Positions 48,457 to 51,265 of a stretch of DNA of 64,000 bases are shown one piece after another. The stretch comes from Candidatus Chloroploca sp. Khr17 (GTDB lineage Bacteria; Chloroflexota; Chloroflexia; Chloroflexales; Chloroflexaceae). The stretch covers positions 124,001 to 188,000 of the forward strand of contig NZ_RYFF01000002.1 of the NCBI RefSeq assembly GCF_004138165.1, in the 5' to 3' direction. The notes under the pieces were generated by a model that had not been told where the DNA came from, searched no databases, and saw only the letters and a list, made by a program, of their open reading frames with translations. Positions within the stretch are counted from its first letter, which is position 1. The number at the start of each line of letters is the position of its first letter. The translations under genes were made by a program, and so were the position numbers.

Positions 48457-48657
48457 TTACCGTTCGGAGCGTTTCACCACCGAACCGGCAGTAGGAACAC
48501 GCTGACCATTGCGCTCACGTCGCGCAAAGGCCGTGATATTGGTCCAGAAAAACGTCAAACCGAGTGCAAGCACCGTAATAATCAAACTTGCCCAGCACAT
48601 GAGCGCCGGGGTGATCGGGCCAATCATTTGCGTGGCCTCACCAAGACCTGCTGGCAT
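48457..48657 (-). CDS. small single-span membrane protein in the bch operon
   Basis: A 66-residue ORF (MPAGLGEATQMIGPITPALM...) with one transmembrane helix (about residues 18-40, CWASLIITVLALGLTFFW) and a basic cytoplasmic tail. AGGAG lies 7 bases before ATG 48657. It is not a recognisable light-harvesting alpha or beta polypeptide (no His in the helix). Position between bchX and bchI suggests a photosynthesis link; function is unknown. Confidence 0.65.
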   Translation of the reverse strand: MPAGLGEATQMIGPITPALMCWASLIITVLALGLTFFWTNITAFARRERNGQRVPTAGSVVKRSER

Positions 48658-48822: not shown

Positions 48823-48990
48823 TTACCGACGCCACAGTGGATTAGCTTGTTCTGGTGACGTTACTTGTTGCGCTTCAAAACTATTGCACCAACTCCAGAA
48901 GATCGCGCTTGCCCACCAGCGCACGCGCAAGTGCCAGGGTGCCAACACATACTCGGTCAGGGCTACTTTTGAAGGGGTTTCTAGCTTCAT
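48823..48990 (-). CDS. 55-residue Trp-rich ORF directly after bchX
   Basis: An open frame of 55 codons from ATG 48990 to TAA 48823, beginning 15 bases past the bchX stop and preceded by GAAGGATG. The product starts MKLETPSKVALTEYVLAP and has a Trp-rich core (WHLRVRWWASAIFWSWC), ending NPLWRR. The hydrophobic part is too short for a sure membrane span. No family is recognised. The position and ribosome site favour a real gene, but only comparison can prove it. Confidence 0.5.
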   Translation of the reverse strand: MKLETPSKVALTEYVLAPWHLRVRWWASAIFWSWCNSFEAQQVTSPEQANPLWRR

Positions 48991-49005: not shown

Positions 49006-50232
49006 TTAACGATACAACGGGCTTGCCGGTCTTCTCAGGTCAACATAACGGTAGGGTTCCCCTGAGCGTTGCAAAGCGATCAGGATCGCCAGCTTGCTCT
49101 CAAGTTCATCCTCGTTGCCAAAGCAAATGGTTGTATTGCCATCAATCGTGAGGGTCATGCCCTTTTTCGGATCGTGATTGGCTTCGGTCACATACATGCC
49201 AAGGTCGGTGAGTAACCTGCCGACGACCCGGTGTGTCGCCGGATCAAGTTCAGGTTGATCGCCAACCGCTTGTTGCATCAAGCCCAGCTCGAAGGTCGGC
49301 ATCACCCTAGCCTCACGCCCGCCCATCAGTTCCTCGACCCCCGCCCCTTCGGGCACCAGATCGGGCTCGATGGCCCCGAAGACCTTCAAAAACTCGGCAT
49401 ACTCAAGCGGATGTACATCTTCCATCGCGACTTCGGGGAGGCTTCGGGTCATAATCTGGCGTGCCAGGCGGTCAAAGATGACCTCAAAACGTGGTTCGGT
49501 GAGGGCCAGTTGGCATGCATCGGCGAGCTCGCGAACGCCACGGTCAAGTGGAATACTTGCCAGTACCGGCAGATTAATCCGCTCGGCAAAGCGTTCGGCG
49601 ACACCACTCCCGTCATCCCGATTGACAATCAACCCGATCAGGCGCGTGCGCCCTCCCATCTGGGCAAAATAGCGGGCCGCACTCGCAATATTATTGGCCG
49701 CATAGAGGCTCTGGCGGTCATTGCCACAGAGGATGATCACCTCTTCGGCTAGCGACCGCGAGAGCGGTGTGGCAAAGCCTCCACAGACCACATCACCCAG
49801 GAAGTCCATCACAATATAATCAAGCGCCCACTGGCTCATCCCGAACTTTTCGAGCAGATCAAAGCCAAAGGTAATGCCACGCCCTCCACAACCGCGTCCG
49901 ACCTCAGGGCCACCAATTTCGCAGCCATAGACAGTCGCCTGATCCATTACCCGTGTCTTAAAGATGACATCCTCGGCGCGCAACTGATCTTCCCGGCCAG
50001 CTTCTTTCAACTCACGCCAGACATCACCGAGCGTTGGCAGGCTGACCCCTCCAAAGAGGGCATTGCAACTGTCGTGCTTGGGATCGCAGCCGAGTTGCAT
50101 CACCCGATTGCCAAGCAGGGCTAGTTTGCTCACCAGATTTGTCGTGAAAAAGGACTTGCCCATGCCACCTTTGCCATAGACGGCCAGCATCCGGGCATGG
50201 TTCGTTCCGTTTTGTCGCATTTTCGCAGGCAT
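49006..50232 (-). CDS. bchX: chlorophyllide a reductase iron protein, with C-terminal extension
   Basis: BchX is the [4Fe-4S] ATPase that feeds electrons to BchYZ for ring B reduction. P loop GKGGMGKS (20-27), Cys115 (GRGCGGRG) and Cys150 (GDVVCGGF) as cluster ligands. GGPEVGRGCGGRGI and FLGDVVCGG mark BchX rather than BchL. Length is 408 against about 333 in Rhodobacter. Residues about 345-405 (MTLTIDGNTTICFGNEDELE, SKLAIL, YRYVDLRRP) look like the C-terminal beta domain of FtsQ/DivIB. ATG 50232 follows GAGAGG. bchY and bchZ are not adjacent. Confidence 0.92.
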   Translation of the reverse strand: MPAKMRQNGTNHARMLAVYGKGGMGKSFFTTNLVSKLALLGNRVMQLGCDPKHDSCNALFGGVSLPTLGDVWRELKEAGREDQLRAEDVIFKTRVMDQATVYGCEIGGPEVGRGCGGRGITFGFDLLEKFGMSQWALDYIVMDFLGDVVCGGFATPLSRSLAEEVIILCGNDRQSLYAANNIASAARYFAQMGGRTRLIGLIVNRDDGSGVAERFAERINLPVLASIPLDRGVRELADACQLALTEPRFEVIFDRLARQIMTRSLPEVAMEDVHPLEYAEFLKVFGAIEPDLVPEGAGVEELMGGREARVMPTFELGLMQQAVGDQPELDPATHRVVGRLLTDLGMYVTEANHDPKKGMTLTIDGNTTICFGNEDELESKLAILIALQRSGEPYRYVDLRRPASPLYR

Positions 50233-50263: not shown

Positions 50264-51265
50264 TCAGACCTCGCTCGTTGCTTCGTCCTGCGGCCATTCC
50301 ACGACGACTTTGAGACAACTCGGATCTTCAAGGGCGAGCCGATAGGCGGCCTGAATGCGATCAAGCGGCACCCGGTGGGTCAGCAGGCCACTGACATGCA
50401 GATCGCCCGAGGCGATCATATCGCGCACGCGGGGCAGGTCACCATCGGCCCCAAATTGCCATTCGCGGGCCACCAGGATCTGTGCCTCACGCATAAAGAC
50501 CGGGGCATACGGAATGTTGATATGATCATAATAGCCGAGCAGCAGAACGCGCCCATGGTTAGCGAGCAGCGGCAGGGCCCCGACAAGCGCAGGCATCGAG
50601 CCAGTTGCCTCAATGATGACATTGATATTGGCTTCGCCGAGTGCTTCGTCTAGTGACTCGCGGGTAATATCAATGACCTGATCCGCCTCGGCCACAGCCA
50701 GACGTACGCCCACCCGGTCGGCGACCGCCACATGCTGTGCCCCCTGAATACGAGCGAGGCGGGCGGCCAGTTGCCCAACGATCCCCTGACCAAGCACCAG
50801 TACGCGGTCAGTCTTACGGATCTGGGCGACATTGAGTCCATGCAGTGCAGTCGCGGCAAGGGCGAGCACCACCCCGGTCGCCGGGTCAATCGAACCCAGC
50901 GGCACGACGCGGTCGGCCTCGGCACTGATATACTCGCTTTGCCCACCCCAGGCCGGGTTGACGCCACGGAAACAGCGGGCACCACCAACATATACCCATT
51001 GCCCTAGCAATTCCTGAGGGGCTTTGGCCCCCACCTTCACGACCTGGCCTACCGTTTCATAGCCGGGGACTACCGGAAAGAGCAGCGCGGGATGCGGCAT
51101 CCGGCCATCAAGCAGCATTCGCTCGGTTCCAGCGCTAATCGAGGTAAAGGCAGTGCGGAGTAGCACATCACCCGCCTGTGGTTCAAGGACTTGAACCGTG
51201 CGCAATTCAATGGTATTGCGGCGAGGGATGACTACGGCGCGAGATTTGATCGGCATGTGGGCCAT
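50264..51265 (-). CDS. bchC: 3-hydroxyethyl bacteriochlorophyllide a dehydrogenase
   Basis: BchC oxidises the C3-hydroxyethyl group to acetyl, completing bacteriochlorophyllide a. The 333-residue protein is a medium-chain dehydrogenase with TSISAGTERMLLDGR near the N-terminus, VPGYETVGQVV, and a Rossmann segment VLVLGQGIVGQLAARLAR. No structural zinc Cys quartet is seen, as in the family. It lies 31 bases upstream of bchX. Start ATG 51265, with ATG 51256 as an alternative. Confidence 0.93.
   Translation of the reverse strand: MAHMPIKSRAVVIPRRNTIELRTVQVLEPQAGDVLLRTAFTSISAGTERMLLDGRMPHPALLFPVVPGYETVGQVVKVGAKAPQELLGQWVYVGGARCFRGVNPAWGGQSEYISAEADRVVPLGSIDPATGVVLALAATALHGLNVAQIRKTDRVLVLGQGIVGQLAARLARIQGAQHVAVADRVGVRLAVAEADQVIDITRESLDEALGEANINVIIEATGSMPALVGALPLLANHGRVLLLGYYDHINIPYAPVFMREAQILVAREWQFGADGDLPRVRDMIASGDLHVSGLLTHRVPLDRIQAAYRLALEDPSCLKVVVEWPQDEATSEV

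Follow-up and report, generated by a model that had tools for sequence, protein, structure and literature searches.

The bchX locus and the layout of its product

The window, a 64,000-nucleotide stretch of the genome of Candidatus Chloroploca sp. Khr17, carries an intact bchX reading frame on the minus strand (49006..50232), which runs from an ATG at 50232 to a stop codon at 49006-49008 and encodes a 408-residue chlorophyllide a reductase iron protein with a C-terminal FtsQ-type domain. A longer alternative start, a TTG at 50364, would give a 452-residue ORF and overlap the bchC-like gene at 50264-51265. The protein matched the NCBIfam equivalog model for BchX (TIGR02016) with 446.6 bits against a cut-off of 331.2, and judged by its sequence it is BchX, the iron protein of chlorophyllide a reductase. 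The bchC-like gene lies on the minus strand, as do the bchI-like and bchD-like genes downstream of bchX, each of these names coming from a reading of the translation. In Chloroflexus aurantiacus, one operon has been reported with bchI, bchD, bchF, bchC and bchX (PMC9316378). BchY and BchZ are both encoded on contig C55 of the same genome as the window, BchY scoring 435.7 bits, over its cut-off, and BchZ 509.5 bits (E 1.2e-152), under its cut-off of 529.

Two short minus-strand frames were also seen near bchX. The one at 48457-48657 encodes a 66-residue protein with one membrane-like segment (MPAGLGEATQMIGPITPALMCW...), which had only a sub-threshold Pfam match and is kept near bchX in Chloroflexaceae loci. 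The other is a 55-codon ORF (MKLETPSK...NPLWRR) directly downstream of bchX at 48826-48990, which had no match in Pfam and was not seen at the f3 and f4 family loci; its frame is kept across Chloroflexaceae loci, including the Chloroflexus-like ones.

Most of BchX is occupied by the Fe-protein core (residues 14-304; 49321..50193, minus strand), delimited by a Pfam Fer4_NifH match (E 1e-67), by alignment with tailless BchX, which ends at about the same point, and by dN/dS. As in the BchX of Pseudomonadota (TIGR02016), this core is whole, with its P-loop and cysteine motifs, and passes the equivalog cut-off. It is followed by a flexible linker (residues 305-328; 49249..49320, minus strand) recognized by its variable length and sequence, its dN/dS and its low pLDDT, which falls below 50 at residues 311-322 and 324-326 of the predicted model. 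Profiles and the predicted fold then place an FtsQ-type domain at residues 331-408 (49009..49242, minus strand), with a predicted order of helix-strand-strand-strand-helix-strand. Within it, a DLR motif (residues 398-400; 49033..49041, minus strand) corresponds to D245-R247 of E. coli FtsQ, and a terminal PxYR strand (residues 405-408; 49009..49020, minus strand) corresponds to the last FtsQ strand.

Relationship of the C-terminal domain to FtsQ/DivIB

The initial annotation had described an FtsQ-like tail on BchX from a set of short motifs, all of which are present: MTLTIDG (359-365), ICFGNED (369-375), ESKLAILIAL (378-387) and YRYVDLRRP (394-402). Profile searches bear the resemblance out. 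The tail alone matched Pfam PF03799 (FtsQ_DivIB_C) with 22.0 bits (E 3.2e-4) against a cut-off of 21, while the score for BchX was 21.3 bits in a genome search and 19.2 bits when the whole 452-residue ORF was used. In that search of the whole genome exactly two proteins exceeded the cut-off, namely BchX and the true FtsQ, whose gene is flanked by ddl-like (D-Ala-D-Ala ligase) and ftsA-like genes. PF03799 was matched by 21 of 28 related 67-residue BchX tails, with a best E-value of 8.4e-5. When a profile of the 28 tails was run against 400 Chloroflexota genomes, the sole second match in the window's genome was FtsQ (E 1.4e-7), and FtsQ was likewise the second match in many relatives. An hhalign comparison of the tails with 12 Chloroflexota FtsQ sequences gave 99.3% and E 1.3e-20 over 67/67 columns with 37% identity, a result less independent than the Pfam and fold results because most of the 12 FtsQ had been chosen for matching. 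We also considered the tail as a promiscuous domain and rejected this, as each of the eight long ORFs that the tail profile matched elsewhere in the Chloroflexota reads as FtsQ, with upstream read-through in several.

An AlphaFold model of the tail, built from BchX sequences only, had a pLDDT of 82-90 across the domain. Foldseek comparison of this model with solved structures returned FtsQ for all of the top 10 matches at a probability of 1.00, followed by an eleventh match at 0.38, and VIA-align Z scores were 6.2-8.8 for FtsQ and at most 4.4 for other structures. The predicted fold is therefore not an unrelated one, a possibility the initial annotation had named as counting against its proposal; it is that of the FtsQ beta domain, limited to the C-terminal half. 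It could still be argued that the resemblance arose by chance or convergence, or that the fusion is an assembly error, given that single-sequence Pfam scores lie close to the cut-off and that the tail profile, when searched against the sequences of solved structures, recovered FtsQ only at E 1.3, ranked behind chance hits. Against the hhalign E-value near 1e-20, the exclusive fold matches to FtsQ and the recurrence of the tail in dozens of genomes, we regard this as extremely improbable.

We conclude that the tail of BchX is almost certainly an FtsQ-type domain and that residues ~331-408 are homologous to the C-terminal half of the FtsQ/DivIB beta domain, including its last strand. Its last 67 residues align over their full length with the FtsQ/DivIB beta domain (PF03799) and share its predicted fold. 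Unlike FtsQ, however, the tail of BchX lacks a transmembrane segment, a POTRA/alpha domain and the first half of the beta domain, has a fixed S-G turn and is presumably cytosolic. In place of the transmembrane segment and POTRA/alpha domain that precede the beta domain in a whole FtsQ stands the Fe-protein core, and BchX is thus a carrier of an FtsQ domain and not an FtsQ. BchX shows no export or membrane segment.

The core and the tail each belong to known families, and it is their combination that is new: an extracytoplasmic division-protein fold is reused on a nitrogenase-like enzyme. The initial annotation knew of no description of the fusion, and we found no paper describing an FtsQ-type domain on BchX in open-licence PubMed Central. 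Some members exceed the PF03799 cut-off, so domain databases may already show the FtsQ domain without comment.

Distribution and conservation of the tail

A search of the class for BchX gave matches in two genomes of another family and in 66 from the order to which the window belongs. Four of the 66 (G039, G059, G068 and G070) had only a weaker Fe-protein match by score, probably BchL, leaving 62 genomes with BchX, three of which (G025, G029 and G058) have the protein cut by contig ends. Among the 59 uncut copies, 48 of which were read residue by residue and the rest judged from alignment coordinates, 58 align up to query residue 406-408. The remaining copy, from Oscillochloris sp. ZM17-4 (L025, L140), ends with ...PYRYVE at 399, without the last strand of the FtsQ-type domain, either by natural truncation or through a sequencing error. 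Since dozens of genomes share this frame, tail and terminus, an assembly error or frameshift joining two ORFs, which the initial annotation had raised against itself, is ruled out.

The tail also occurs in nine BchX copies from a further Chloroflexota group beyond the window's order. It is present in eight copies read from a further family, f35 (L084-L091), and in the BchX of a MAG titled Anaerolineae bacterium (L139). The module is fixed across one order and one further group and is not peculiar to the window's genome. Two BchX of family f5 (L052, L053), from organisms that we take as Chloroheliales-like, end without a tail. Among the named genomes scanned, records under a Pseudomonadota title supplied 76 BchX, which end 293-294 residues past the start of YGKGG and none of which (0/76) matched the tail profile, whereas three Chloroflexota BchX reach 380-391 past this point and match it; across the comparison, the Chloroflexota copies, with their FtsQ-type domain, extend to 380-394. 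The tail is likewise missing from two proteobacterial BchX encoded on plasmids. The sample covered Chloroflexota and Pseudomonadota and left out Chlorobi, heliobacteria, Acidobacteriota and Eremiobacterota; the absence of Chlorobi matters because in published trees their BchXYZ are neighbors of the phototrophic Chloroflexota proteins (PMC10972752). BchX figures in debates over horizontal movement of bacteriochlorophyll synthesis between Chloroflexota, Chlorobi and other groups, and the tail provides a discrete marker in this protein. A tree on the 67 tail columns is compatible with a single origin of the BchX tails, with the split supported only 53/74, and did not name the donor FtsQ lineage.

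Two records from the survey stood out. One genome of family f35 (G388) has two bchX copies, L085 and L086, one adjoining bchY and the other on a 3.4-kb contig. A MAG titled Candidatus Gracilibacteria SM1_231_1 (L142) gave a BchX match on a 4434-bp contig; since contig G020:C762, from the window's family, has an identical length, a mislabeled title or a mixed bin is probable.

Twelve pairs of relatives were compared for selection. Where it could be estimated, dN/dS was 0.00-0.09 for the tail and 0.01-0.06 for the catalytic core, and it was 0.05-0.45, mostly 0.17 or more, for the linker; these values are rough owing to the short tail and to silent-site saturation in some pairs. At the level of sequence, the tail is shown to be under purifying selection and to be conserved to much the same degree as the catalytic part. 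With a tail constrained like the core and a looser linker between them, the tail is best described as a retained, tethered module. Across the aligned BchX tails and FtsQ, G358, G372, D398, R400 and P405 are invariant, and Y407 is nearly invariant in the BchX tails.

Proposed origin and role of the tail

We propose, with a probability of roughly 60%, that this BchX is a two-domain protein in which a [4Fe-4S] electron donor carries a flexibly tethered, FtsQ-derived docking domain. BchX of phototrophic Chloroflexota would then combine the ATP-dependent [4Fe-4S] donor of chlorophyllide a reductase with a domain that arose once, through the capture of an ftsQ 3′ end, and that may act as a docking module in the cytosol. 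Its exposed last strand could accept a peptide strand from a partner, by analogy with FtsQ and FtsB; the likeliest partner would be BchY/BchZ or a membrane-bound protein of pigment synthesis, and through docking the Fe protein would stay close to its catalytic partner as it cycles. A more specific scenario, which we offer tentatively, has a peptide-docking fold of a division protein entering the pigment enzyme in a single capture event in early phototrophic Chloroflexota and, from then on, tying the reductase to a partner particular to the lineage. The proposal predicts a docking partner, which can be tested for, in a pathway whose physical organization is little known in green filamentous phototrophs, and lineage-specific tethering, if true, would be a previously unknown way to organize bacteriochlorophyll synthesis.

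The structure of FtsQ with FtsB (PMC6134095) shows that in E. coli a strand of FtsB joins the beta domain of FtsQ at its last strand, around Y248. The C-terminus of BchX falls exactly at the strand equivalent to this last FtsQ strand. Because BchX ends at the equivalent of the FtsB-accepting strand and key residues are kept, a strand-accepting docking module is the best-supported role, and by this analogy we somewhat favor docking as the function of the tail. Several observations count against it. At the position of the FtsB-contacting tyrosine (Y248 in E. coli), BchX of Chloroflexaceae has Arg (Cys in one), and most, but not all, other copies have Tyr; the Oscillochloris sp. ZM17-4 copy does without the last strand; and the first half of the beta domain is missing. 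Among the matches listed, no corresponding extra domain appeared in BchY or BchZ, whether or not the organism's BchX bears a tail. Thus, of the earlier suggestion of an FtsQ-like docking module, the FtsQ-like part held, while docking to BchYZ or a membrane partner stays a proposal, with no reciprocal domain among the matches listed for BchY and BchZ and with Arg at the Y248 position in Chloroflexaceae.

The same strand bears on whether the tail ties bacteriochlorophyll synthesis to the division machinery through an FtsQ partner such as FtsB. The tail is homologous to the FtsB-binding part of FtsQ, and Tyr occupies the Y248 position in 7/11 copies of families f3/f4 and 7/8 of f35, but Chloroflexaceae have Arg there, and the Y248K change renders E. 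coli FtsQ non-functional (PMC6134095). Such a link is very improbable because FtsB binds FtsQ outside the cytoplasm and BchX shows no export or membrane segment.

An alternative to docking is suggested by the related Fe protein of DPOR, BchL, which likewise has an extra terminal segment, a flexible autoinhibitory N-terminus that gates the protein (PMC7948495). As a C-terminal counterpart, the tail of BchX might fold back on the Fe protein and mask the [4Fe-4S] docking face until ATP binds, and its attachment through a flexible linker would suit such a regulatory cap. The BchL segment that masks the cluster is, however, N-terminal, short and flexible and not a folded FtsQ-type domain (PMC7948495). 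The output of the predicted model gave no readable contact between tail and core, and we consider the cap unlikely.

Fe proteins of the nitrogenase-like kind are dimers, and the tail could instead associate with itself and so stabilize the homodimer of BchX or a higher assembly. This seems quite unlikely, as tailless BchX proteins manage without it, although the second helix of the tail carries small residues that would fit such a contact: A382, A386 and S390 are spaced four apart and show little or no variation in BchX. In this helix and the turn that follows, A386, S390 and G391 are kept in BchX and variable in FtsQ.
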